Positions 16 through 49,521 of a DNA stretch of 49,521 nucleotides are shown piece by piece (position 1 is the stretch's first letter; every line of letters begins with the position of its first letter). The notes under the pieces are model-generated. The model saw nothing but the letters and a program-made list of their open reading frames with translations. It was not told the DNA's origin and did no database searches. Location: the NCBI GenBank assembly GCA_035696245.1, contig DASRQW010000369.1, positions 1 to 49,521 of the forward strand, read 5' to 3'. The translations under genes were made by a program, and so were the position numbers. The DNA is from Longimicrobiaceae bacterium. Lineage in GTDB: Bacteria > Gemmatimonadota > Gemmatimonadetes > Longimicrobiales > Longimicrobiaceae.

Positions 16-1011
16 CTACGCGCCGGCTTCGACGACGGAGTGGTCGCCGAGATCGACCTGGCCCTTCACGCCCTTCACCCGCGCCTCGCTGCCGATGAGC
101 GAGTCGTGCAGGTCCGCGCCCTCGATGGTGGACCTGGCGCCCACGATGGTGTCGCGCAGCCTGCTCCCCCGCACCGTCACGCCGGCCGAGAGCGTCACGT
201 TGGGCCCGATCTCGCAGTCCTCCAGCGTCACGCCGTCTGCCACGTGCACCGGCTCGTGCACCGTCACGCCGTCCTTGGCGGCCGGGCTCCTGCCGCGCGA
301 GGTGGAGAGGACGTGCAGGTTGGTCTCCAGCAGCGTCTCGGGCTTGCCTGCGTCGTACCAGCCCTCCACGGCCACCGTCTTGATCTTGGCGCCGTGGTCC
401 ACCATGTACTGGAACGCGTCGGTCAGGTAGTACTCGCCCGAGGCCCCGGGCTTGGAGCTCATCACGTGGTGGATGCCCTCGAAGAGCAGCTTGTGGTCGC
501 GGATGTAGTAGAGCCCGATGTTGGCGAACTTGCTGACGGGCTCGCTGGGCTTCTCGATGATCTCGCGCATATTGCCTTCGTCGTCGGTCACGATGACGCC
601 GAAGCGCTGGTAGTCCTCCACCTCCTTGGCCCAGATCACGCCCGCCACGTCGTCCGGCAGCGTCTTCACGATGGAGAGGTCGGCGTCGAACAGCGTGTCC
701 ACGAAGATGATGAGCAGCTCGTCGTCGGCATACGGCTCCGCCAGCTCCACGGCGCCGGCGGTGCCGTTCTGCACCGGCTGCTCCACGTACACGGCCTTGA
801 AGTCCGGGTACTCCGTCTCCATGTACTGCTGCACCTTCTCCTTGAGGTGCCCCGTGATCACCACCGCCTCGTGCACGCCCAGCTCGCGCAGGTCGTCCAG
901 GATGTAGCTCATCACCGGCTTGTCGGCCACCTTCAGCAGCGGCTTGGGCGTGACGTGCGTGTGCGGGCGAAGACGCGTGCCCTTGCCGGCCAGCGGGATG
1001 ACGACTTTCAC
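16..1011 (-). CDS. Sugar-nucleotide transferase (NDP-sugar pyrophosphorylase type)
   Basis: 331 aa. It is predicted to join a sugar 1-phosphate to an NTP to give an NDP-sugar and pyrophosphate, feeding cell-envelope polysaccharide synthesis. The N-terminus has the family signature (GKGTRLRPHT, residues 9-18, followed by TPKPLL). It continues with a Rossmann-like nucleotidyltransferase domain to about residue 240 (EKP, then YYLTDAFQYM, and EGWYDAGKPETLL as the sugar-site segment). The C-terminal ~80 residues look like left-handed beta-helix hexapeptide turns (GVTLEDCEIGPNVTLSAGVTV). I chose the GTG start because GGAGAG lies 7 nt upstream and the protein then begins directly at the MKVVIPLAG strand; the longer open frame upstream is low-complexity. 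RmlA-like thymidylyltransferase and GlmU/GalU-like activities cannot be separated by eye. The gene is divergent from the Lon-like gene across a long non-coding gap. Confidence 0.88.
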   Translation of the reverse strand: MKVVIPLAGKGTRLRPHTHVTPKPLLKVADKPVMSYILDDLRELGVHEAVVITGHLKEKVQQYMETEYPDFKAVYVEQPVQNGTAGAVELAEPYADDELLIIFVDTLFDADLSIVKTLPDDVAGVIWAKEVEDYQRFGVIVTDDEGNMREIIEKPSEPVSKFANIGLYYIRDHKLLFEGIHHVMSSKPGASGEYYLTDAFQYMVDHGAKIKTVAVEGWYDAGKPETLLETNLHVLSTSRGRSPAAKDGVTVHEPVHVADGVTLEDCEIGPNVTLSAGVTVRGSRLRDTIVGARSTIEGADLHDSLIGSEARVKGVKGQVDLGDHSVVEAGA

Positions 1012-1366
1012 TCTGGGCTCTCCGTTGGATTCTGTTTGGGTCGGGATGGCGCGGCGTCCGCCCCGGCACGCCGCCGCCCGCCGCCGAGCACGTTCCGTAC
1101 CGGCTCCGCGTGCAAGCCGGACGGTGGCCGACCTGCGAGATGCGAGATGCGTGGCCGCCTCGCCCGGCGCGCCGCCTGGCCACCGGCGGCGCCAACATAC
1201 CCGCCCCTCCGCGACACCGTCAAACCTCCCCGGATGCCCGGCGGATGTAGCCTCGCTCACCAACCGCAGGGCTCGCATCTCCCGATCGCTCGCACACCCG
1301 GCGCCGCAGGGCTGCGAGCGCCCACAAGCTTCGGAAGATGCCAATCCGGCCGACACGCCGCCAGGC

Positions 1367-1774: not shown

Positions 1775-4231
1775 ATGCCCACCAAGCCCGCCGCCACGCC
1801 CGAGCAGCCCGCGCCACCCGCGCTCCCGGAGCGCATCCCGGTGCTGCCCATCCGGAGCACCATCGTGTTCCCCATGGGCGCCACCGCGCTCCAGATCGGG
1901 TTCGCGCCCAACGTGGAGGCGCTGCTGGCCAACCCCGGCCGCGACCAGGTGGTGGCGATCGTGGCCACCAGCGACGACGACTTCCCGCTCGACCCCGCCA
2001 CCATGCAGAAGGTGGGCGTGGCCGTGCGCGTGCTGGACCGGCTGAACCTGCCCGGCGGCACCATCCAGGCCACGCTCCAGGGCCTGCGCCGCCTGCACCT
2101 GGACGACGTGCGCCTGGAGGACGCCGGCTACTACACGGCCGCCCCCCGCCACGTGGAAGAGACCGTCCCGCCCGCCGAGGTGACGGACGAGCTGGTGGAG
2201 AAGATCCTGAACACGCTGGGCGGCGTGGCGGCCAAGGTCGAGCGCATCCCCGACGAGGTGCCGCGGGTGCTACGCATGAACCTGAGCGACCCCGGCCGCT
2301 TCGCAGACCTGGCCGCCACGCTCTGCAACCTGAAGCTGCCCGACCGCGACGACGTGCTCCAGGCGCTGGACGTGGCCGACCGGCTCCGCGTGGTGCTCGC
2401 CGCCCTGGAGGAGACGTGGGACCGCGTGCGCGCCATCGAGGACGGCACCGCCGGCCCCGAGCAGCCGTCCGAGGGCCAGCCGCGCGACCGCCCGGCCGAG
2501 ATCCGCCGCCGCATCCAGGCGCTGCAGGCTGCGCTGGGCGAGGTGGACCCCAACGAGCGCGACGCCAACGAGGCGCTGCGCCGCATTGAGCGCGCGCAGC
2601 TTCCGCAGCGCATCGCGGCCATCGCCCGTCGCGAGGCCGAGCGGCTGCGCTCTTCGGGCACCACGGCGACCGAGGCGACCGAGCTGCGCACGTACCTCGA
2701 CGCGCTGGTCTCCATCCCCTGGAACCGCTGCGCGGCCAAGGGCGGCATCGACCTGGCCGAGGTCGAGAAGGCGATCGACGAGGAGCACCTGGGCGTGGAC
2801 GAGGCCAAGCAGCGGCTCATGGAGGTCATCGCCGTGGCCGAGCTGCGCGGCGACCTGCGCGGGCCGATCCCGTGCATCGTGGGCCCGCCGGGCGTGGGCA
2901 AGCGCACGCTCGCCACCGCCATCGCCCGCGGGCTGGGGCGCCCGTTCGTGCGCCTGGAGCTGGGCGGCCGCGGCGAGGGGCAGCTGGTGGGCACCCGCCG
3001 CAACCGCAGCGGCGCCGCGCTGGGGAAGATCATGGCCGCCATCCGCGACGCGGGCGCCAGGGACGCGGTGTTCCTGCTGGAGGAGCTGGACGAGGTGGGC
3101 CTCGGCTCGGTGGAGGGCGACCCCGTGGAGGCGCTGGAGGAGGCGCTGGACCCGGACAACCGCGACGAGTTCGTCGACCAGTACCTCGACGCGCAGTTCG
3201 ACCTCTCCGACGTCTTCTTCATCGGCACCGCGGCGGACTTCTACCGCATCCCCCGCGACCTGCGGAACCTCTTCATCGAGATCCGCATCGCCGGCTACAC
3301 GCCCGAGGAGAAGATCGCCATCGCGCGCGAGTGGCTGCTGCCCCGCATCGTGGCCGAGAACGGGCTGGCGGTAGAGGACGTGCAGGTCAGCGACGAGACG
3401 CTGCTCTTCCTCACCCGCGGCTACGCGCGCGACGCGGGCGTGGGCAACCTGCGCCGCTCGCTGGCCGCCGTCATGCGCCACCTGGCCCGCCGCAAGGCCG
3501 GGGGCGAGACCGCGCCGTGGACCATCGGCACGGCGATGCTCGAGGAGATATTGGGCTACCCGCGCTACAGCATCACCCCGGCCGAGAGCGCGCCCGAGGT
3601 GGGCGTGGTCACCGGCCTGGCGTGGACCGCCTCCGGCGGCGAGCTGATGTTCATCGAGGCGCTGAAGATGCCGGGCACCGGGCGCCTCATCATCACCGGC
3701 CTGCTGGGCGACGTGATGCGCGAGTCGGTGAACGCCGCGTTCAGCTACGTGCGCTCACGGGCCGAGGCGCTGGGCATCCCCAACGAGGCGTTCGGCGACA
3801 ACGACATCCACGTGCACTTCCCGGTGGGCGCCACGCCCAAGGACGGCCCCTCGGCCGGCGCGGCGGTCACGCTCGCCATCGCCTCGTCGCTCAGCGAGCG
3901 CCCGGTGCGGCACGACGTGTCGCTCACCGGCGAGGTCACGCTGCGCGGCAAGATCCTGGAGATCGGCGGGCTCAAGGAGAAGGTGCTGGCCGCGTACCGC
4001 GCCGGCCTGCGCCGCGTGATCCTGCCCACGGCCAACCGCCGCGACCTGCGCGACGTGCCGGCCGACGTGCGCGAGAAGATGGAGTTCCACTTCGTGGACC
4101 GCATGGACGAGGTGCTGGACATGGCGCTGCTGGAGCACCCGGTGGGCACGCAGTACCTCAAGGACGACTCCGCCCGCCCCTCCGCCCGCCCGGAGAAGCA
4201 GGCGGCCGACGCCCCGCGCGCCATGGGCTGA
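1775..4231 (+). CDS. Lon-family protease with a degenerate ATPase domain
   Basis: 818 aa, close to LonA length, with LonA order: N-terminal LAN domain (about 20-210), coiled linker, AAA+ module (about 300-590) and C-terminal protease domain (about 600-790). The protease dyad is intact: S693 in PKDGPSAGAA and K736 in GGLKEK, 43 residues apart as in E. coli Lon. The ATPase motifs are eroded. Walker A reads GPPGVGKRT (370-378, R377 where T/S belongs). Walker B reads FLLEELDE (433-440, first Asp replaced by Glu). The sensor-1 Asn aligns with Ala (GTAADF), the arginine-finger segment LLDR aligns with DLRN, and sensor-2 GVR is GVG. The pore loop also lacks its usual aromatic residue (SGAALGKI). It is probably a cytoplasmic serine-lysine protease with weak or no ATP-driven unfolding. 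LonC-type enzymes, known to be ATP-independent, are a functional precedent. The start is the last in-frame ATG before the LAN domain, with a weak GAG upstream. Confidence 0.9.
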   Translation: MPTKPAATPEQPAPPALPERIPVLPIRSTIVFPMGATALQIGFAPNVEALLANPGRDQVVAIVATSDDDFPLDPATMQKVGVAVRVLDRLNLPGGTIQATLQGLRRLHLDDVRLEDAGYYTAAPRHVEETVPPAEVTDELVEKILNTLGGVAAKVERIPDEVPRVLRMNLSDPGRFADLAATLCNLKLPDRDDVLQALDVADRLRVVLAALEETWDRVRAIEDGTAGPEQPSEGQPRDRPAEIRRRIQALQAALGEVDPNERDANEALRRIERAQLPQRIAAIARREAERLRSSGTTATEATELRTYLDALVSIPWNRCAAKGGIDLAEVEKAIDEEHLGVDEAKQRLMEVIAVAELRGDLRGPIPCIVGPPGVGKRTLATAIARGLGRPFVRLELGGRGEGQLVGTRRNRSGAALGKIMAAIRDAGARDAVFLLEELDEVGLGSVEGDPVEALEEALDPDNRDEFVDQYLDAQFDLSDVFFIGTAADFYRIPRDLRNLFIEIRIAGYTPEEKIAIAREWLLPRIVAENGLAVEDVQVSDETLLFLTRGYARDAGVGNLRRSLAAVMRHLARRKAGGETAPWTIGTAMLEEILGYPRYSITPAESAPEVGVVTGLAWTASGGELMFIEALKMPGTGRLIITGLLGDVMRESVNAAFSYVRSRAEALGIPNEAFGDNDIHVHFPVGATPKDGPSAGAAVTLAIASSLSERPVRHDVSLTGEVTLRGKILEIGGLKEKVLAAYRAGLRRVILPTANRRDLRDVPADVREKMEFHFVDRMDEVLDMALLEHPVGTQYLKDDSARPSARPEKQAADAPRAMG

Positions 4232-4610: not shown

Positions 4611-4755
4611 GGTGGTCCTCCTGAAAAGATGGTTTGGTGGGTGGATTGTCGTGGATGGATCTGGGCCGCGGCGGAGCCGCCGGGGCCGGCGGAGTGCAGG
4701 CGCGCTAGGTCATCCGTCCTCCTCTTCGAAGTTTCCCTTCCCGCGGCCGGGCACC

Positions 4756-6684
4756 ATGCCCGGGCCGCGTCTCACAAGCTCCGGCGCGGCCCGCACGAAA
4801 TCCGCACGGCCGCCGCACGGTCCCTCCGCACCGCCCCCTTCCCATGGTTTTGACGGCTTGACCGACGGATTTTCCCTCCGCATCCTGGGCGCGCCCGCGC
4901 TGGTGTGCCGCGGCGTGCCTTGCGCCGCCGGGCTGCGGCGCAAGGACCTGGCGCTGCTGGTCTACCTGCGCGTGGAGCACGGCCGGGCGCATCCGCGCGC
5001 GCGCCTGGCGGCCTTGCTGTGGGGAGAGACCGACGAGGACCGCGCGCGGCACTCGCTCACTCAGGCGCTGGGCCGCGTGCAGAAGGTGCTGGGGAGCGCC
5101 GCGATGGGCTTCGAGCACGATGCCGTGCGCTGGACGGCGCCGCTGCCGTGCGACCTGGACTGGATGGAGGGAGATGCGCACCCGGCCTGCTCCGCCGGGT
5201 GGACGGCCGCGTTCCTCGACGGGTTCGGGGCAGGCGCGGGGGCGCGCGACTTCGAGGAGTGGGCCGACGGCGCGCGCGAGCGGGTGCGGCGGGCGCAGGG
5301 CGCGCTGCTGGAGGGGTGGGGCGCGGCTGCGGAGGCCGCAGGCGAGTGGGAAGCGGCGTGGCGGCTGGCGGACCGGGCCGTGGCGGTGGACCGGCTGCGC
5401 GAGCAGGCCCACCGCCGCCTCATGCGCGCGCTGGCCGCACGCGGCGAGGCGAACCTGGCGCTGCGCCACTACCAGGACTTCGCCGCCTGGCTGGACGAGG
5501 AGATCGGCGGCGCCCCCGACGCGGAGACCACCGCCCTCGCCCGCGAGCTCCGCACCTCCGTTGCCAGGCCCGCCGTCCTCGAGAGAATCCCGGAGCCGCG
5601 CATCCCGCCTGTGGCGCTGGCGGACGTCGCTCCGCTTCTCGACACGGTAGATGCACCGCTGCCGGAAGATGCGGCGCTTTCTCACACGTCGTCTCTACCC
5701 AGGACGCCTGCCATCACGCCTCAAAGGTCAGCGGCCGAAGGGTTCGCCGCTGTGGAGGAAGATGCGGAGCACTCCGGAGATGAGCATACCCGAGATGCGG
5801 ATGATGTAGACGCGGCGCGAGCGGCCGAAGATCGAAGGGATGCAGCGGATACGCACTTCACCACGCTCTCCGGGCGCGCAGCCGGGACGGAAGGCACGGA
5901 CGATCTGCAGCCACGTGCCGATCCGGTGCGGCGATTCCGCACCGTCCACGCCGTTGCGACGGCTCTGCTGATGCTGGCGGTGGTCGCCCTGCCGCTCGCC
6001 TTGCATCGGGGGAGCGGTGCGGCGGAGATGCGGGATGCGCCGGCGGTGGCGCCGCCCGGCTACGGCGAGGTGATCCGGGTCGCGGGGCACGCCGCGGCGT
6101 ACCTGTTCATGGGCGACACCGTGTACGAGTACCCGGACTCGGCCACGCTGCGGGCGTGCACGGGCGGCTGGCCCGACGTGGCGCGCGAGGTGCCCACTCT
6201 GCCGCGGCTGCCGCGCCGCGTCCTTCCGTCGGTGAACGACCGGCCGTGGATGGGCAGCGCCACGCCCATCGTCTCCGACCACCCCAGCGACAAGACCGCG
6301 TACGTGGCGGTGGGGTGCGTGCGTGTGGGCATCCCGAACCCGCCCACGTTCGAGAGCATCTTCGGGCATGGCGGGTGGGACCGGATGATCGAGGTGCCGG
6401 ACTCCGTGGTGCACAGCCTGCCGCGCCTGTTCGTCGCGCGCGGGCACCCGGTGCGCCCCGCGGGCACGCTCCTGCGCAGCCGCGACGGCCGCGTGCGCTG
6501 GATCCTCTTCCACGGTGGCGCTGCGGACGCATCGCCGCGCGCCCTCGCCGCCCACTGCCGCGCCCCGTCCGACGCCCTCGCGGCCACCGACGCCGAGTTC
6601 AACTACTACCGTCCCCACCGCCGCATCCTCACCTCATCCGGCCCCTGCGCCCCCACCCGCACCGCATCCACCAACCAAGACTGA
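4756..6684 (+). CDS. Membrane-anchored BTAD/SARP-type transcriptional regulator
   Basis: About 642 aa. The N-terminus after residue 37 (FSLRILGAPAL... LVYLRVEHG ... LLWGETDEDRARHSLTQALGRVQ) matches the OmpR-like winged helix of SARP regulators. It is followed by an alpha-helical bacterial transcriptional activation domain (about 130-270, TPR-like, ALAARGEANLALRHYQDF). A disordered acidic linker (about 275-390) is built from short motif repeats (EDAE, GDE, DAD, EDRRDAAD). One transmembrane helix follows (about 396-417), then a ~225-aa extracytoplasmic domain of unknown fold. The architecture resembles one-component ToxR/CadC-type regulators, in which an outside sensor controls an inside DNA-binding head. 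The start is uncertain: ATG 4756 has no good ribosome site and TTG 4858 is possible. Confidence 0.72.
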   Translation: MPGPRLTSSGAARTKSARPPHGPSAPPPSHGFDGLTDGFSLRILGAPALVCRGVPCAAGLRRKDLALLVYLRVEHGRAHPRARLAALLWGETDEDRARHSLTQALGRVQKVLGSAAMGFEHDAVRWTAPLPCDLDWMEGDAHPACSAGWTAAFLDGFGAGAGARDFEEWADGARERVRRAQGALLEGWGAAAEAAGEWEAAWRLADRAVAVDRLREQAHRRLMRALAARGEANLALRHYQDFAAWLDEEIGGAPDAETTALARELRTSVARPAVLERIPEPRIPPVALADVAPLLDTVDAPLPEDAALSHTSSLPRTPAITPQRSAAEGFAAVEEDAEHSGDEHTRDADDVDAARAAEDRRDAADTHFTTLSGRAAGTEGTDDLQPRADPVRRFRTVHAVATALLMLAVVALPLALHRGSGAAEMRDAPAVAPPGYGEVIRVAGHAAAYLFMGDTVYEYPDSATLRACTGGWPDVAREVPTLPRLPRRVLPSVNDRPWMGSATPIVSDHPSDKTAYVAVGCVRVGIPNPPTFESIFGHGGWDRMIEVPDSVVHSLPRLFVARGHPVRPAGTLLRSRDGRVRWILFHGGAADASPRALAAHCRAPSDALAATDAEFNYYRPHRRILTSSGPCAPTRTASTNQD

Positions 6685-6886: not shown

Positions 6887-7137
6887 CCGTGCTCGTCTTC
6901 CGCCTCGTGCGCGTCTTCCAGCTCATCGGGCCGTTCGCGGGGCCGCGCATCTTCCGGCATGTTCTTGTCCGGGATGAAGCGCAGCACCATCGCGGCGATC
7001 CCGATGGCGGCAGCGACCAGCGCAAGCTCGCGGCGGTCCAGCGCCATGGCGGCCATCAGCACGGCGCCCGCCGCGAAGAAGAGCCCCAGCCGCAGCTGCA
7101 GGTGCCGCGCGGAGCCGGTGCGCGCGCCGCGGCTCAC
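6874..7137 (-). CDS. Small two-helix membrane protein
   Basis: 87 aa. Two hydrophobic segments (LGLFFAAGAVLMAAMAL, about 17-33, and ELALVAAAIGIAAMVLRF, about 37-54) are joined by a tight DRR turn. A charged cytoplasmic-type tail follows (PDKNMPEDARPRERPDELE..., rich in Asp/Glu). The GTG start overlaps the stop of the enoyl-CoA hydratase gene (GTGA, 4 nt), so it is the translationally coupled last gene of the trio. No family is recognised. The tail contains one copy of the dispersed GCATCTTCCGG motif (6948-6959), read here as PEDA. Confidence 0.7.
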   Translation of the reverse strand: MSRGARTGSARHLQLRLGLFFAAGAVLMAAMALDRRELALVAAAIGIAAMVLRFIPDKNMPEDARPRERPDELEDAHEAEDEHGGAA

Positions 7138-7922
7138 TTGGCGGGCGCGGCGCGGTCGCCGTCCAGGAAGCGCCGCACGCCCGCCTGCATGTCGTCCGTC
7201 ATCCGGGCGACGACGTTCACGTCGGCCCCGGCGCGGATGCCCGCCTCGAAGCCCATGCCGTCGGAGTGGTACAGCAGCCGCTTGGAGAGCTGCACGGCGC
7301 TGGGGCTGCGGTCCGCCATCTCCGCCAGGAACGCGCCCACGCCGTCGTGGAACGCATCGTCCGGGAAGACGTGGTTGATGAGGCCCACCCGCTCCGCCTC
7401 GGCCGCGGGGATGGGGTTGCCGCGCACGATCAGCTCGAACGCGCGCTTCTCGGACACGTTGCGCCGCAGGATCGCCATCACCATCGCGGGCACGAAGCCG
7501 ATCCGCACCTCAGGGTAGCCGAACTGCGCCGACTCTGCCGCCAGCACCACGTCGCACGCGGTCGCTAGGCCGCAGCCGCCCGCCAGCGCCCGCCCGCGCA
7601 CCGCCGCGACCACCGGCTTGCGCATCTGCCGCGGCAGCAGGAACAGCTCCGCCAGCTCGTCCACGTCCTCCAGGTTCTCCATCACCGACGCATCGGCGAT
7701 GCGGCGCAGCGCGGAGAGGTCGGCCCCGGAGCAGAAGTCCTTCCCCGCCCCCTCGATGCACACCACGCGCACCTCCGCGTCGGCATCCATCGCCCGCAGC
7801 GCCGCTTTGAGGTCCGCCACCAGCTCCGCGTTCAGCGCGTTGCGCTTGTCCGGCCGGTTCAGAGTGATGCGCCCCACGCCCGCCGAGCGGCTGGTGAGCA
7901 GCCGCTCGCCGCCTTCGCTCAC
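7134..7922 (-). CDS. Enoyl-CoA hydratase/isomerase family protein (crotonase fold)
   Basis: 262 aa, the usual crotonase length. It is predicted to hydrate or isomerise an acyl-CoA double bond in the cytoplasm. Signature elements are NRPDKRNALN near residue 18, the oxyanion-hole segment GKDFCSGADL, and the second oxyanion/active-site block RGRALAGGCGLATACDVVLA, followed by EVRIGFVPA. The Glu of PEVRIG lies where the second catalytic Glu of hydratases usually sits. The GTG start overlaps the stop of the AtuA-like gene (4 nt) and its own stop overlaps the next gene, so all three are expected to be co-translated. Pairing with an AtuA-like domain suggests a role in branched or terpenoid acyl-CoA breakdown, but the exact substrate is not readable. 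Confidence 0.88.
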   Translation of the reverse strand: MSEGGERLLTSRSAGVGRITLNRPDKRNALNAELVADLKAALRAMDADAEVRVVCIEGAGKDFCSGADLSALRRIADASVMENLEDVDELAELFLLPRQMRKPVVAAVRGRALAGGCGLATACDVVLAAESAQFGYPEVRIGFVPAMVMAILRRNVSEKRAFELIVRGNPIPAAEAERVGLINHVFPDDAFHDGVGAFLAEMADRSPSAVQLSKRLLYHSDGMGFEAGIRAGADVNVVARMTDDMQAGVRRFLDGDRAAPAK

Positions 7923-8275
7923 GCCGCGCCTCCGGAAGCCGCCAGCGCCGCGATCTCGTCCGGCACGTCGATCTCCATCCGCAGCATGGCGGTGGAGAGC
8001 ACCTTGCCCTGCGCGTCGGTCTTGAGCGACACGGTGCCGCCGCCGCCCAACGAGTTGTGCAGCAGGAAGTTGAGCGCCTCCAGGTTGGGCAGCTCGAACC
8101 GTTCCACGCCGCCCAGGCAGATGCCCTCGAAGTGCTTCTTCACGCGCTCGGTGGTCACCTGCTCCACCAGGTGCGGGTAGAACTCGGGCCGGAGCGCGAT
8201 GACGCCCACGTTCGCGGTGTCGCCCTTGTCGCCCGAGCGGGCGTGGGCCAGGTGCAGCAAGCGGATGCGTGCCAT
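7919..8275 (-). CDS. Stand-alone AtuA-like C-terminal domain protein
   Basis: 118 aa. The sequence (LLHLAHARSGDKGDTANVGVIALRPEFYPHL ... GGVERFELPNLEALNFLLHNSLGGGGTVSL) matches the small domain that normally ends AtuA/DUF1446 proteins of acyclic-terpene utilisation, or occurs as a separate subunit. The SGDKGD and N-x-L-x-x-L-G-G-G-G motifs are present. ATG at 8275 is chosen because the family begins with this R-x-x-L-L-H-L-A-H-A-R-S strand; the longer frame upstream is unconserved-looking. It is the first gene of the coupled trio. The large DUF1446 partner is not next to it in this window, so the pathway assignment is inference. Confidence 0.75.
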   Translation of the reverse strand: MARIRLLHLAHARSGDKGDTANVGVIALRPEFYPHLVEQVTTERVKKHFEGICLGGVERFELPNLEALNFLLHNSLGGGGTVSLKTDAQGKVLSTAMLRMEIDVPDEIAALAASGGAA

Positions 8276-8670
8276 CGTTCTCGGAAGATGTGGTTCGGAA
8301 GATGAAGCTCGGCAGATCGCAAGAGGTTCGTACGCAAGCCCGCAGCGCCCTCGGCCGATGCGCGGCCCTCGATCCGCGAGTCCTCCGTGGAAGCGCAGCC
8401 GCCGATCCCGGTCCGACGCGGATGCGAAACCCGCGACCGCGCCGATGCCGCGGAAGCAGCCCGCGCAGGCGGGCTTCGTGCCGTTGTTTCCCCCGGGTTC
8501 ACCCGCCAGGCGTTCGGCCGACGACATTCATTCCATGCAGGGCGACGTCGACGGAATACAAGAAAGCACTCCCCCACGCGGGCTGCAAGCCGTGCGCCCA
8601 CGCCGGGTCTCATCCACAGTCCTCCGCGCATCTACCGATCCCGCGCCCCGTCCTTCGGCGCGGGCCAGGC
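8276..8670. other. Non-coding gap
   Basis: No supportable gene is seen. Two tandem TCGGAAGATG copies (8281-8290 and 8295-8304) sit just upstream of the AtuA-like gene, in the space where its leader would be. Confidence 0.6.
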
Positions 8671-8835
8671 TCAGTCGCCGCCGATCATCGACATCAGCGC
8701 GCCGCCGCCTACCGAGACGAGCACGAACACGAACGCCAGGCCGATGATGCCGTAGCCCAGCGTGAGGAACACGCTAGCCACGATGGCGGCGAGGACGAAG
8801 ACGGGAGTCCACGGGGAGACGCGAACGGTATGCAT
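8671..8835 (-). CDS. Small two-helix membrane protein, 54 aa
   Basis: After a short N-terminus (MHTVRVSPWT) there are two hydrophobic helices, PVFVLAAIVASVFLTLGYGI and IGLAFVFVLVSVGGGALM, and the protein ends in SMIGGD. The start is set by a strong ribosome site (GGAGGG, 5 nt before the ATG); the longer frame upstream would add a basic non-conserved-looking stretch. It lies 132 nt downstream of guaB on the same strand, so it may be read through from guaB or have its own promoter. The family is not recognised; by size and composition it resembles small inner-membrane stress or assembly proteins, but no function is claimed. Confidence 0.68.
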   Translation of the reverse strand: MHTVRVSPWTPVFVLAAIVASVFLTLGYGIIGLAFVFVLVSVGGGALMSMIGGD

Positions 8836-8967
8836 GGGGACCCTCCGGGAGAAGGAGAGAGGTGCTGCGGGTCCGGACCCGCGCCGCAAGAAGCACACCC
8901 CTCCCCGTATCTCCCGAATGCCCGCAAACGTCTGTGGTCCGCGGTTTTCCGCGCTGTCGCGCCGCCG

Positions 8968-10518
<1,551 letters not shown>

Positions 10519-42637: not shown

Positions 42638-45600
42638 CTACCGGTACAGCCACACCCGCATCAGCGACAGCAGCTGGTCGGTGTCCACCGGCTTGGTGAT
42701 GTAGTCCGAGGCGCCCGACGCGATCGACTTCTCGCGGTCGCCCTTCATCGCCTTGGCCGTGAGCGAGATGATGGGCAGGTTCGCGAACGACTCCATCTCG
42801 CGTATGGCCTTGGTCGTCTCGTAGCCGTCCATCTCCGGCATCATCACGTCCATCAGCACCAGGTCCACGTCGGGGTTCGCCTTCAGTGTCTCGATGGCGT
42901 CCCGGCCGTTCTCGGCGAAGACCACGTTCATCCCCTGGCTCTCCAGCACGCTGGTGAGCGAGAAGATGTTCCGCACGTCGTCGTCGACCACCATGATCTT
43001 CTTGCCGGCGAAGGTGCTGTCGGCATTGTGCAGCTGCTCCAGCATGCGGCGCTTCTGCTCGGGCAGGCGCGCCTCGATGCGGTGCAGGAAGAGCGCGGTC
43101 TCGTCGAGCAGCCGCTCCGGGCTCTTCACGTCCTTGATGATGATGGTCTCCGCGTACCGCCGGAGCTGCGTCTCCTCCTGCGGGCTCAGGTCCTTGCCCG
43201 TGTAGATGATGATGGGCGTGTTCTGGAGCTCCGGGTTGCTCTTCACCGTCTCCAGCAGCTTGAAGCCGTCCATGTCGTGCAGGCCCAGGTCCAGAACCAT
43301 GCAGTCGAAGTGGCTGCCGCCCAGCTGCTCCAGCGCCTCCTGCGCGCTGCCCACCGCCACGATCTCCACGTCGTCCTCGCCCACCAGCTCGATGATGCTC
43401 TTGCGCTGGGTCTCGTCGTCCTCCACCACCAGCAGGCGCTTGACCGCGGTGGAGATGAAGGTGGAGATCTGCTCGAACGCGCCCTCCAGCGCCTCCTGCG
43501 TGACCGGCTTCTCCAGGTAGCTGATGGCACCCGAGCGCAGCCCCTGCTGCCGCTTGTCGGCCGCCGAGACGATGTGCACGGGGATGTGGCGCGTCTCTGC
43601 GTGGTGCTTCAGCCGGTCCAGCACCGTCCACCCGTCGATGCCCGGGAGGTCGATGTCGAGCGTGACCGCGTCGGGCCCGTACTGCGCCACCAGGTCCAGC
43701 CCGGTTTCGCCGTCGAGCGCCACGATACCCTTGAAGCCCTTCTCGCGGGCCATGTCCAGCAGGATGCGCGCGAACGGCACGTCGTTCTCCACGATGAGCA
43801 CCGTGCGGTCGCCCGGCTCGATGGCCGCCCGGTCGTCGTGGATGGCGCCCTGCCCGCCCTCGCGCGGCACCCGCCGCCGCTCGGGCGCCGGGGCCGGGAT
43901 CGACCGCGTGGCCGTGCCCGCCGGCAGCGCCCCGGCGTTGGCCATCGCCCGCCGCTCCTCGGCGGCCTCCACGTCCTCGTCCATCCCGTCGTCGCCGCTC
44001 CAGTGCTCCGGCAGGAAGAGGGTGAACGTGCTGCCCTCGCCCTCGGCGCTCTCCACGCGGATCTCGCCGCCCAGCAGGCGCGCGATCTCGCGCGAGATGG
44101 ACAGGCCCAGGCCGGTGCCGCCGTACTTGCGGCTCGTGGTCCCGTCCGCCTGCTGGAACGCCTCGAAGATCAGCCGCTGCTTGTCCCTCGCGATCCCGAT
44201 GCCGGTGTCGCTGACCGCGAAGGCGATCACCGTCTCCGCCTCGTCGAGCGTGGGGTTGGCGAAGCGCCGCCCCTTGTCGGCCCGCCGCACGGTCAGCTTC
44301 ACCCCGCCCTCGGCCGTGAACTTGACCGCGTTGGCGATCAGGTTCTTCAGCACCTGCTGGAGGCGCTGGCCGTCGGTGTAGATGCTCTCCGGCAGCTCGC
44401 CGGCCAGGTCCACCTCGAACTGGAGGCCCTTCTGCTCGGCCACCGGCTGGAAGCTGCGCTGCACGTAGTCGCGCACGTCGGCCAGCAGCACGTCGCTGGG
44501 GTTCACCTCCATCTTGCCCGCCTCGACCTTGGAGAGGTCGAGCACGTCGTTGATCAGGTTCAGCAGGTCGGTGCCCGACGCCAGGATGGTCTGCGCGAAC
44601 TCCACCTGCTTCTCGCTCAGGTTCCCGTCCTTGTTGTCGGCCAGCAGCTTGGCCAGGATCAGCAGCGAGTTGAGCGGCGTCCGCAGCTCGTGGCTCATGT
44701 TGGCCAGGAACTCGGACTTGTACTTGGACGACAGGGCGAGCTGCGCCGCCTTCTCCTCCAGCGCCAGGCGCGCCGCCTCCACCTCGCTGTTCTTCTGCTC
44801 GACCTTGCGGTTCTGCTCGGCCAGCAGCGAGGCCTTCTCCTCCAGCTCCTCGTTGACCTGCTGGAGCTCCTCCTGCTGGTCCTTCAGCGCCTCTTCCGAA
44901 GCCTTCAGCGTCTTCGCCTGCGACTCCAGCTCGGCGTTCGTGCGCCGCAGCTCGTCCTGCTGCGCCTGCAGCTCCTGCGACTGGCTCTGCAGCTCCTGCG
45001 TGAGCTTCTGCGACTGCTCCAGCAGCTCCTCGGTGCGCATGTTGGCGGTGATCATGTTGAGCACCACGCCCACGCTCTCGGCCAGCTGGTCCAGGAAGAC
45101 CTGGTGAATGTCGGAGAACGGAAGGAACGAGGCGAGCTCGATGACCGCCTTCACGTCGCCCTCGAACAGGATGGGCAGCACCATGATGTTCCGCGGCGGG
45201 GCCTGGCCCAGCCCGGAGTTGATCATGATGTAGTCGTCCGGGACGCCGGTGAGCAGGATCGACTTCTTCTCCAGCGCCGCCTGCCCCACCAGCCCCTCGC
45301 CCAGGTGGAAGCGGTTCGCGACGTGCTTGCGCTGCTTGTACGCGTAGCTGGCGATCAGCTTCAGCACGGGCGTCTGCCCGTCCTGGTCCATGATGAAGAA
45401 CGCGCCGTGGTGGGCCGAGACCAGCGGCGTCAGCTCGCTCATGATGAGGCGCGACACCGACTCCAGGTCCTTCTGGCCCTGCATCATGCGGCTGAACTTG
45501 GCCAGGTTGGTCTTCAGCCAGTCCTGCTGCTTGTTCGTCTCCGTGGTCTCGCGAAGGTTCGCGATCATCTGGTTGACGTTGCGCTTCAGCTCGTCGAGCT

Positions 45601-48600
45601 CGCCCTTGGCCTCCACCGTGATGGTGCGGGTCAGGTCGCCCTCGGTCACCGCCGTCGCCACGTCCTTGATGGCGCGCACCTGGTTGGTGAGCGAGTTGGC
45701 CATGGCGTTCACGTTGTCGGTCAGCGCGCGCCAGGTGCCCGCCGCGCCCGGCACCTCGGCCTGGCCGCCCAGCTTGCCTTCCGTGCCCACCTCGCGGGCC
45801 ACGCGCGTCACCTCGTCCGCGAACACGGAGAGGCGGTCGACCATGGAGTTGATGACGTCCTTGATCTGGAGGATCTCGCCCGCCGCCTCGACCGTGATCT
45901 TCCGCGTCAGGTCGCCGTCCGCGATCGCCGTCGCCACGGCGGACACGTCGCGGAGCTGAACCGTCAGGTTGCCTGCGAGCTGGTTCACGTTGTCGGTGAG
46001 GTCGCGCCACACGCCCGCGACGCCTTCCACCCGCGCCTGCCCGCCCAGCTTCCCTTCCGTGCCCACCTCCTTGGCCACGCGCGTCACTTCCGACGCGAAT
46101 GCGCTCAGCTGGTCCACCATCGTGTTGACGGTGTCCTTCAGCTGGAGCATCTCGCCCTTCACGTCCACCGTGATCTTGCGGCTCAGGTCGCCGCGCGCCA
46201 CGGCCGTGGTCACGTCGGCGATGTTGCGCACCTGGCCGGTCAGGTTACTCGCCATGAAGTTCACGGAGTCGGTCAGGTCGCGCCAAACGCCCGCGACGCC
46301 TTCCACCCGCGCCTGCCCGCCGAGGCGGCCTTCCGTGCCCACCTCGCGGGCCACGCGCGTCACCTCCGATGCGAACGAAGAGAGCTGGTCCACCATGATG
46401 TTCACGGTGTTCTTCAGCTCCAGCATCTCGCCCTTCACGTCGGCCGTGATCTTCCGGCTCAGGTCGCCGCGCGCCACCGCCGTGGTCACGTCGGCGATGT
46501 TGCGCACCTGGCCGGTGAGGTTGCTCGCCATGAAGTTCACGCTGTCCGTCAGGTCCTTCCACGTGCCGCCCACACCGGGCACGTTGGCCTGCCCGCCCAG
46601 CCGCCCCTCCGTGCCCACCTCTCGCGCCACGCGCGTCACCTCGTCCGCGAACACGGAGAGGCGGTCGACCATTCGGTTGATCACGTCCTTGATCTGCAGG
46701 ATCTCGCCCTGCGCCTCGACCGTGATCTTCCGCGTCAGGTCTCCGTCGGCGATGGCCGTCGCCACGGCGGACACGTCGCGGAGCTGCACCGTCAGGTTGC
46801 CGGCCAGCTGATTCACGTTGTCCGTCAGGTCTCGCCAGACACCGGCGACGCCCTCGACTCGGGCCTGGCCGCCGAGCTTCCCTTCCGTGCCCACCTCCTT
46901 CGCGACGCGCGTAACCTCGGACGCGAAGGCGGAGAGCTGGTCCACCATGGTGTTTATGGTGTTCTTGAGCTGGAGCATCTCGCCCTTCAGCTCCACCGTG
47001 ATCTTCTGGCTGAGGTCGCCGTTCGCCACCGCGGTGGTGACGAGGGCGATGTCGCGCACCTGGCCCGTCAGGTTGCTCGCCATGAAGTTCACGCTGTCCG
47101 TCAGGTCCTTCCACGTCCCCGCGACTCCAGGCACCTCCGCCTGGCCGCCGAGTACGCCTTCCGTGCCCACCTCCCGGGCCACGCGCGTCACCTCGTCCGC
47201 GAAGACCGAGAGACGGTCGACCATTCGGTTGATGACGTCCTTGATCTGAAGGATCTCGCCCTGGGCCTCGACCGTGATCTTCCGGGTGAGGTCGCCGCTC
47301 GCGATGGCGGTTGCCACGGCGGACACGTCGCGCAGCTGAACCGTCAGGTTGCCTGCGAGCTGATTCACGTTGTCGGTGAGGTCGCGCCAGACACCTGCGA
47401 CGCCTTCGACTCGGGCCTGGCCCCCCAGCTTCCCTTCCGTGCCTACTTCCTTCGCGACGCGCGTCACCTCCGATGCGAATGCGGAGAGCTGGTCCACCAT
47501 CGTGTTGATGGTGTTCTTCAGCTCCAGCATCTCGCCCTTCAGCTCCACCGTGATCTTCTGCGACAGGTCACCGTTGGCGACCGCCGTCGTCACCAAGGCG
47601 ATGTTGCGCACCTGGCCGGTCAGGTTGCCGGCCATGAAGTTCACGCTGTCCGTCAGGTCCTTCCACGTGCCCGCCACGCCCGGCACCTGCGCCTGCCCGC
47701 CGAGCACGCCTTCGGTGCCCACCTCTCGCGCCACGCGCGTCACCTCGTCCGCGAAGACGGAGAGGCGGTCCACCATGGAGTTGATGACGTCCTTGATCTG
47801 AAGGATCTCGCCCTGCGCCTCGACGGTGATCTTCCTCGTCAGGTCGCCGTCCGCGATGGCGGTCGCCACGGCGGACACGTCCCGCAGCTGCACCGTCAGG
47901 TTGCCGGCGAGCTGGTTCACGTTGTCGGTGAGGTCGCGCCACACGCCCGCGACTCCCTCCACCCGAGCCTGGCCGCCGAGCACGCCCTCCGTGCCCACCT
48001 CTCGCGCGACGCGCGTCACTTCCGATGCGAAGGCGGAGAGCTGGTCCACCATCGTGTTGACGGTGTTCTTCAGGTCCAGCATCTCGCCCTTCACATCTAC
48101 CGTGATCTTCTGCGACAGGTCGCCGTTCGCCACCGCGGTGGTCACGAGGGCGATGTTGCGCACCTGGCCGGTCAGGTTGCCGGCCATGAAGTTCACGCTG
48201 TCCGTCAGGTCCTTCCACGTCCCCGCCACGCCCGGCACCTGTGCCTGGCCGCCGAGCACGCCTTCCGTGCCCACCTCTCGTGCGACTCGCGTCACCTCGT
48301 CCGCGAAGACCGAGAGCCGGTCCACCATGGAGTTGATGACGTCCTTGATCTGAAGGATCTCGCCCTGGGCCTCGACCGTGATCTTCCTCGTCAGGTCGCC
48401 GTCGGCGATGGCCGTCGCCACGGCGGACACGTCGCGCAGCTGCACCGTCAGGTTGCCGGCCATCGCGTTCACGCTGTCGGTCAGGTCCTTCCACGTGCCG
48501 CCCACGCCGGGCACCTCCGCCTGGCCGCCGAGCACGCCTTCCGTCCCCACCTCGCGCGCGACTCGGGTCACCTCCGATGCGAAGGAGCTGAGCTTGTCCA

Positions 48601-49521
48601 CCATCGTGTTGATGGTGTTCTTCAGCTCCAGCATCTCGCCCTTCAGCTCCACCGTGATCTTCTGGCTGAGGTCGCCGTTCGCCACCGCGGTGGTGACGAG
48701 GGCGATGTCGCGCACCTGGCCCGTCAGGTTGCCGGCCATGAAGTTCACGCTGTCCGTCAGGTCCTTCCACGTGCCGCCCACGTTGGGCACCTCCGCCTGC
48801 CCGCCGAGCACGCCTTCCGTGCCCACCTCGCGTGCCACGCGCGTAACCTCGTCCGCGAAGACGGAGAGGCGGTCGACCATGGAGTTGATGACCTCCTTGA
48901 TCTGAAGGATCTCGCCCTGCGCCTGCACGGTGATCTTCCGGGTCAGGTCGCCGTCGGCGATGGCGGTCGCCACGGCGGAGACGTCGCGGAGCTGTACCGT
49001 CAGGTTGCCGGCCATCGCGTTCACGCTGTCCGTCAGGTCCTTCCACGTGCCGGCGACCCCGGGCACCTCCGCCTGCCCTCCCAGCACGCCCTCCGTCCCC
49101 ACCTCCCGCGCGACTCGCGTCACCTCGGAGGCGAATGCGGAGAGCTGGTCCACCATCGTGTTGACGGTGTTCTTCAGGTCCAGCATCTCGCCCTTCACGT
49201 CCACCGTGATCTTGCGGCTCAGGTCGCCGCGCGCCACGGCCGTGGTCACGTCCGCGATGTTGCGGACCTGGCCGGTGAGGTTGGACGCCATGAAGTTCAC
49301 GCTGTCGGTCAGGTCCTTCCACGTGCCGGCGACGCCCGGCACCTCCGCCTGGCCGCCCAGCACGCCCTCCGTGCCCACCTCGCGGGCGACTCGCGTCACC
49401 TCGCTGGCGAACGAGGAGAGCTGGTCCACCATCGTGTTGACGGTGTTCTTCAGGTCCAGCATCTCGCCCTTCACGTCCACCGTGATCTTGCGGCTCAGGT
49501 CGCCGCGCGCCACGGCCGTGG
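42638..49521 (-). CDS. Giant poly-HAMP hybrid histidine kinase with three receivers (5' end outside window)
   Basis: At least 2293 aa; the reading frame is still open at the window edge, so the true N-terminus is unseen. Order: 13 complete 92-aa HAMP-pair units plus a partial first one (49521-45695), a last HAMP (to about 45480), GAF (about 45480-45080: [16 protein letters not shown] ... [15 protein letters not shown]) and a long coiled coil (about 45050-44730). HisKA has its His at 44690-44692 ([11 protein letters not shown]) and is followed by HATPase ([35 protein letters not shown]). REC1 (about 43810-43460, [10 protein letters not shown]), REC2 (about 43450-43090, [10 protein letters not shown], conserved Pro replaced) and REC3 (about 43010-42650, [11 protein letters not shown]) end the protein. 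No transmembrane segment is seen in the window. It resembles group III (Nik1-type) kinases. It is the first visible gene of the cheR-cheB-kinase operon. Confidence 0.93.
45695..49521 (-). repeat. 276-bp tandem repeats encoding HAMP pairs
   Basis: Units begin with N-L-T and sit exactly 276 nt apart: 45695-45970, 45971-46246, 46247-46522 and so on to 49007-49282, with a partial unit to the edge. Two unit types alternate. Type A has NLTGQVR ... TTAVA-x-GDLS; type B has [20 protein letters not shown]. This gives a 552-bp A-B period, broken where A follows A (46247-46522 beside 45971-46246, and at the edge). Identity between same-type units is very high at DNA level. Confidence 0.95.

Follow-up and report, generated by a model that had tools for sequence, protein, structure and literature searches.

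A LonA-type protease that has probably lost its ATP-driven motor in two families of Gemmatimonadota

The window examined here, which is the whole analysed stretch of 49,521 nucleotides, contains a gene for an 818-residue protein that carries an intact Lon protease site together with a AAA+ domain from which most ATPase residues have disappeared. We judge it fairly probable that this protein is a paralogue of LonA whose ability to hydrolyse ATP and to pull substrates was lost once, in the ancestor of two families, and that it was thereafter kept as a peptidase. Judging from its sequence, the protein probably degrades already-unfolded proteins without ATP, and its most fitting classification would be a motor-degenerate variant derived from LonA. 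Coordinates are collected in Table 1.

Table 1. Features of the degenerate Lon gene and its product (aa, amino-acid residues; positions are those of the window)
Feature	Position	Strand	Basis
Motor-degenerate LonA protease gene, 818 aa	1775..4231	+	ORF (ATG at 1775, stop ending 4231) and translation
N-terminal LON substrate-binding domain, aa 21-211	1835..2407	+	PF02190 (LON_substr_bdg), 82.7 bits
Linker interrupting neck (coiled-coil) helix, aa 225-236	2447..2482	+	anchored-segment comparison; model pLDDT <50
Degenerate AAA+ large subdomain, aa 356-505	2840..3289	+	PF00004, 47.3 bits; Pfam AAA span 367-500
Walker A GPPGVGKRT: Lys376 retained, Thr to Arg377	2882..2908	+	family alignment
Pore loop 1: Tyr to Arg411 (codon 3005-3007), one residue shorter	2963..3028	+	family alignment
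Walker B VFLLEE: first Asp to Glu436, Glu437 retained	3068..3085	+	family alignment
Sensor-1 position: Asn to Ala487	3233..3235	+	family alignment
Arginine-finger position: Arg to Leu499	3269..3271	+	family alignment; EcLonA Arg484 (PMC9569914)
AAA lid, aa 506-583	3290..3523	+	PF22667; Pfam Lon_lid span 528-578
Sensor-2 position: Arg to Gly557	3443-3445	+	family alignment
Lon S16 protease domain, aa 584-786	3524..4132	+	PF05362 (Lon_C), 280.7 bits
Catalytic Ser693 in PKDGPSAG	3851..3853	+	family alignment
Catalytic Lys736 in GGLKEK	3980..3982	+	family alignment

The ATPase elements of E. coli LonA comprise Walker A (residues 356-363), Walker B (419-424), the sensor-1 Asn473, the arginine finger Arg484 and the sensor-2 Arg542 (PMC6722904, PMC9569914). 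Of the AAA+ site, the 818-residue protein keeps only the Gly and Lys of Walker A together with the Glu of Walker B, and therefore lacks the makings of a functional site, and the aromatic-hydrophobic pair of pore loop 1 has changed from Tyr-Val to Arg-Ser. A preliminary description of this DNA had listed as replaced the Walker A Thr/Ser (by Arg), the first Walker B Asp (by Glu), the sensor-1 Asn, the arginine finger, the sensor-2 Arg and the pore aromatic. An alignment with 54 intact LonAs bears out every one of these substitutions: R377 stands where the comparators have Thr, E436 replaces the Asp, A487, L499 and G557 occupy the sensor-1, arginine-finger and sensor-2 positions, and R411 is found where all 54 have Tyr. 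The comparators, which were taken from related genomes and consist of canonical LonAs plus the second LonAs of two further families (f3 and f7), are all intact at every scored motor site. Two features had escaped the preliminary description: Walker A still has its Lys and Walker B its catalytic Glu, and a linker interrupts the long neck helix. One paper on yeast Lon names R672 as the arginine finger instead (PMC8913295); counted from the Walker A Lys, the corresponding residue is R409, a second pore-loop Arg that does not vary within the aligned clade.

Sixty-one related genomes were searched, and orthologues sharing 55-76% identity turned up in two families of a single Gemmatimonadota order, f1 (17 of 21 genomes, fragments counted) and f2 (9 of 12). 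No orthologue in this identity range was found in f3, and the gene is missing from some members of both f1 and f2, with genomes G003, G023, G025 and G035 giving no match. When the search was extended with a profile to 295 genomes of the class, a clean gap separated the clade (356-386 bits, and one fragment at 241) from all other sequences (at most 245 bits). Within the clade, the pore Tyr, the Walker B Asp, the arginine finger and the sensor-2 Arg are each lost in all 22 aligned members, with Arg at the pore position in 21 of them. The sensor-1 Asn is lost in 20 and kept in two, and the Walker A Thr/Ser is lost in 15 and kept in seven; the Walker A Lys persists throughout (22/22), as does the Walker B Glu in all but two members (20/22). 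The recurrence of the four core losses in all 22 members is not chance. One member (L078) lies on a contig of the MAG ZC4RG40 titled ‘Proteobacteria bacterium’ and is nested among Gemmatimonadota sequences; the contig is probably mislabelled or a contaminant.

The protease half of the protein presents a different picture. A total of 42 residues lie between Ser693 and Lys736, and Pro692 precedes the Ser, which is an arrangement of the LonA type (PMC9569914). The dyad is kept in 21 of the 21 clade members whose sequence extends that far, and the earlier impression that its spacing and context match those of active Lon is upheld. Columns that are near-invariant among intact LonAs were compared by domain. 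In the AAA domain, 30 of 61 have been affected (13 lost, 17 eroded) and in the lid 5 of 14 (three lost, two eroded), whereas all 46 in the protease domain are kept, with none lost or eroded (AAA plus lid versus protease domain, Fisher p = 1e-9). Divergence was compared as mean distances over 12 matched genomes that carry both degenerate Lon and canonical LonA. The protease domain of degenerate Lon has diverged less than that of canonical LonA (0.222 versus 0.284), while its AAA domain (0.316 versus 0.243) and lid (0.433 versus 0.300) have diverged more. In the close pairs examined, dN/dS is below 1 for each domain, and of this NG86 estimate, which is rough on high-GC genes, the sign alone was used. 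The proposal in the preliminary description that the protease has been retained under selection is supported, and this selection is strong and extends over the whole clade.

The AAA domain has not only lost residues. Fifteen of the 29 clade-specific fixed residues fall within it, which corresponds to 4.8-fold odds relative to the rest of the protein (p = 8e-5), and no such enrichment was seen in two control groups. Many of the new residues are charged, including R411, E452, E455, R463, R494 and E502. Because these new residues have become fixed there, the domain looks repurposed, a reading that fits better than mere decay.

All parts of the LonA domain order are present in one chain (N-domain, AAA, lid and S16 protease by Pfam), and the nearest solved chain by sequence is that of E. 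coli LonA, which aligns across residues 20-794. A fold comparison returned LonA structures for all 50 top matches, albeit with low global TM-scores. The AlphaFold model reached a pTM of only 0.47 and was consulted solely on the order of the domains and on the linker in the neck; its low confidence in the protease domain is due to the near-invariance of the 13 input sequences in that region. The Pfam AAA profile PF00004 scores 47.3 bits versus 93.5 bits in the canonical paralogue. The assertion that the protein keeps full LonA architecture holds for the domain order, but not for the neck, where a coiled-coil segment has been swapped for a variable linker rich in Pro, Gly and acidic residues. 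When measured between fixed anchors, this segment is always 51 residues long with a QRE-type helix in canonical and f7 LonAs, and ranges from 51 to 62 residues in the degenerate clade. Many members of the second LonA of f3 (L031-L051) have an eroded or substituted neck helix segment, and the motor motifs are all kept; the loss of the neck can thus be separated from that of the motor.

A tree was built from the protease domain alone to avoid the eroded region. The degenerate clade groups together with moderate support (SH-aLRT 86), falls inside the LonA-type sequences of the phylum but away from the canonical LonA encoded by the genomes of its members, and has the intact second LonA of f7 as its sister (SH-aLRT 98). 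This sister (L107-L117) is approximately 50% identical over its full length and has no indels in the protease domain relative to the clade, but its ATPase and pore motifs and its neck helix are all intact. One change each suffices on the tree for the pore Tyr, the Walker B Asp, the arginine finger and sensor-2, and hence on this tree the four core motor losses have a single origin, probably in the ancestor of the two families. The Walker A Thr/Ser and sensor-1 require three and two changes, respectively, and therefore erosion apparently went on after the founding loss. The second LonA of f3 was rejected as an orthologue, given that it forms a separate deep branch with intact motifs. A further LonA with intact motifs (L028), from an f1 genome without degenerate Lon (G004), forms a long branch that belongs to none of the other groups.

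Several known Lon types bear comparison with the degenerate protein. LonA (MEROPS S16; E. coli Lon, MtaLonA and LONP1) has the same order of N-domain, neck, AAA, lid and protease and the same type of active site, in which Pro precedes the catalytic Ser, but differs in possessing the Walker A Thr, the Walker B Asp, sensor-1, the arginine finger, sensor-2, the pore Tyr and an intact neck helix. LonC (MtaLonC, TTC1975) likewise combines an intact Lon protease domain with an AAA-like domain that has no functional ATPase motifs, and it cuts unfolded substrates independently of ATP, as would be expected of degenerate Lon. However, membership of LonC is excluded by three features. The LonA N-domain (PF02190) is present here but absent from LonC; the LonC site is LonB-like with no Pro at the position of Pro692 (PMC9569914, PMC3391209); and the LonC-specific insertion CX3GLX(G/E), which lies after the helix of the catalytic Lys and ahead of the strand that follows it (PMC3391209), is missing from the degenerate protein, with alignments to the E. 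coli chain 6u5z and to the f7 LonA being ungapped there. Similarity to TTC1975 is limited to the protease domain. The absence of canonical AAA+ motifs is a shared property that was reached independently, and the LonA-like assignment made in the preliminary description stands on this evidence and on the placement among LonAs on the tree. A weak match to BrxL (BREX Lon-like protein) involves only its distant Lon-type C-terminal domain; BrxL has other N-terminal parts and a defence context.

The genomic neighbourhood pointed to no specific pathway and was set aside as a functional clue. A sugar-nucleotide NTP_transferase gene (16-1356, minus strand) lies divergently upstream. At as many as 16 of the 20 clade loci, many of them truncated, a match accompanies degenerate Lon, and none was found in the vicinity of the f7 sister. 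Just downstream is a gene for a SARP-like bacterial transcriptional activator domain protein (4705-6684, plus strand), which is not conserved in most clade loci. Farther along, genes for an enoyl-CoA hydratase, an AtuA ferredoxin-like protein and an IMP dehydrogenase follow in a row (7134-10443, minus strand), in an order also seen in L076 and L086, and near the end of the window lies a gene for a 2291-residue hybrid histidine kinase in which at least 14 HAMP domains in tandem accompany one GAF and three receiver domains (42638-49513, minus strand).

How might such a protein operate? The peptidase activity of E. coli Lon is supported by non-hydrolysable AMPPNP-Mg almost as well as by ATP-Mg (PMC5509003), and MtaLonC degrades unfolded proteins without ATPase activity, yet binds nucleotide (PMC3391209). 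Taken together, these precedents lead us to expect a passive homohexameric chamber for unfolded polypeptides. The degenerate protein would form a LonA-like homohexamer in which a AAA ring without its trans-acting arginine, sensors and Walker B Asp should not fire, so that no ATP would be hydrolysed, and in which a pore lined with Arg, and devoid of Tyr, should be unable to pull substrate. The ring would then serve as a static gate. Unfolded or short polypeptides would bind the N-domain, diffuse passively into the chamber and be cut by Ser693/Lys736, with folded proteins being left to canonical LonA. ATP independence is what we infer from the primary structure, and nucleotide could still bind, perhaps persisting as a structural ligand, given the retention of the Walker A Lys and Walker B Glu. 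A counterpoint to the peptidase reading is that E. coli Lon without the entire HI(CC) domain fails to degrade casein (PMC5509003), and the neck that is altered here is part of that domain. We put forward only tentatively the fuller model of a passive, Arg-lined AAA gate on a constitutively active chamber, constituting a distinct subfamily unrelated to LonC that arose by one-step motor loss and exists beside a normal LonA in two families.

Two accounts seem very remote to us. The protein scores barely above the NCBI equivalog threshold for endopeptidase La (TIGR00763, 614.0 bits against 608.05), as might be expected if it were an ordinary ATP-dependent LonA and the apparent losses came from misalignment. 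However, a check for motifs displaced by local insertions, made with the 54 intact LonAs and 22 clade members, rescued none of them. The alignment is consistent over all 22 members and ungapped around each motif except for one residue missing from pore loop 1, which is the sole nearby length change; 59 residues separate the Walker A Lys from the Walker B Asp position, compared with 60 in LonA (PMC9569914). Equally remote is a decaying duplicate heading for pseudogene status with no specific function. The gene is absent from the four genomes named above and hence dispensable in places, but its ORF is intact in most of about 25 genomes, dN/dS is below 1, and the protease domain is conserved beyond that of canonical LonA; a pseudogene was rejected on the strength of this conservation.

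Other accounts concern what the remaining AAA fold does. Inactive AAA subunits occur in some hetero-hexamers, and a non-hydrolysing subunit might co-assemble with canonical LonA into mixed hexamers and tune them. The preliminary description had suspected a canonical Lon elsewhere in the genome, and one was located at G000:C121 (L065) with its motifs intact (GPPGVGKTS, LLDEVDK, TAN, DRME and EAGVR). Every genome bearing degenerate Lon also gives canonical LonA matches, the AAA fold is still constrained, and the new fixed charged residues could make interfaces. Nevertheless, we think mixed hexamers unlikely: canonical LonA occurs in nearly all relatives regardless, rendering the co-occurrence uninformative, positions differing between the two proteins make up 76% of the N-domain and 55% of the AAA domain, and the altered neck is not expected to pack with canonical neck helices. 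ATP might instead still be bound, and perhaps slowly hydrolysed via substitute residues, such that the nucleotide state gates the protease without substrate pulling. The retained Walker A Lys, Walker B Glu and, in seven members, Thr/Ser make nucleotide binding and some regulation possible, MtaLonC offers a precedent for binding, and the invariant R409 could be counted in favour if the yeast assignment is adopted. Given the complete loss of the four core residues and the near-complete loss of the sensor-1 Asn, this gating is also improbable.

Searches of the open literature yielded no description of a motor-degenerate LonA, including under Gemmatimonadota, Longimicrobium or pseudo-ATPase Lon. 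To our knowledge, no ATP-independent Lon other than LonC has been established, and LonC is far from LonA in sequence; motor loss in the present lineage would be a second, independent origin of motor-less Lon. One practical consequence is that automated naming can label proteins without ATPase residues as ATP-dependent ‘endopeptidase La’. Here, a LonA lost its motor within one lineage, a sister clade at approximately 50% identity still keeps its motor, and clade members stand at differing stages, as the Walker A Thr/Ser and sensor-1 Asn illustrate. This combination makes it testable which residues an active LonA chamber needs, and likewise what role a AAA ring plays once it is no longer a motor.
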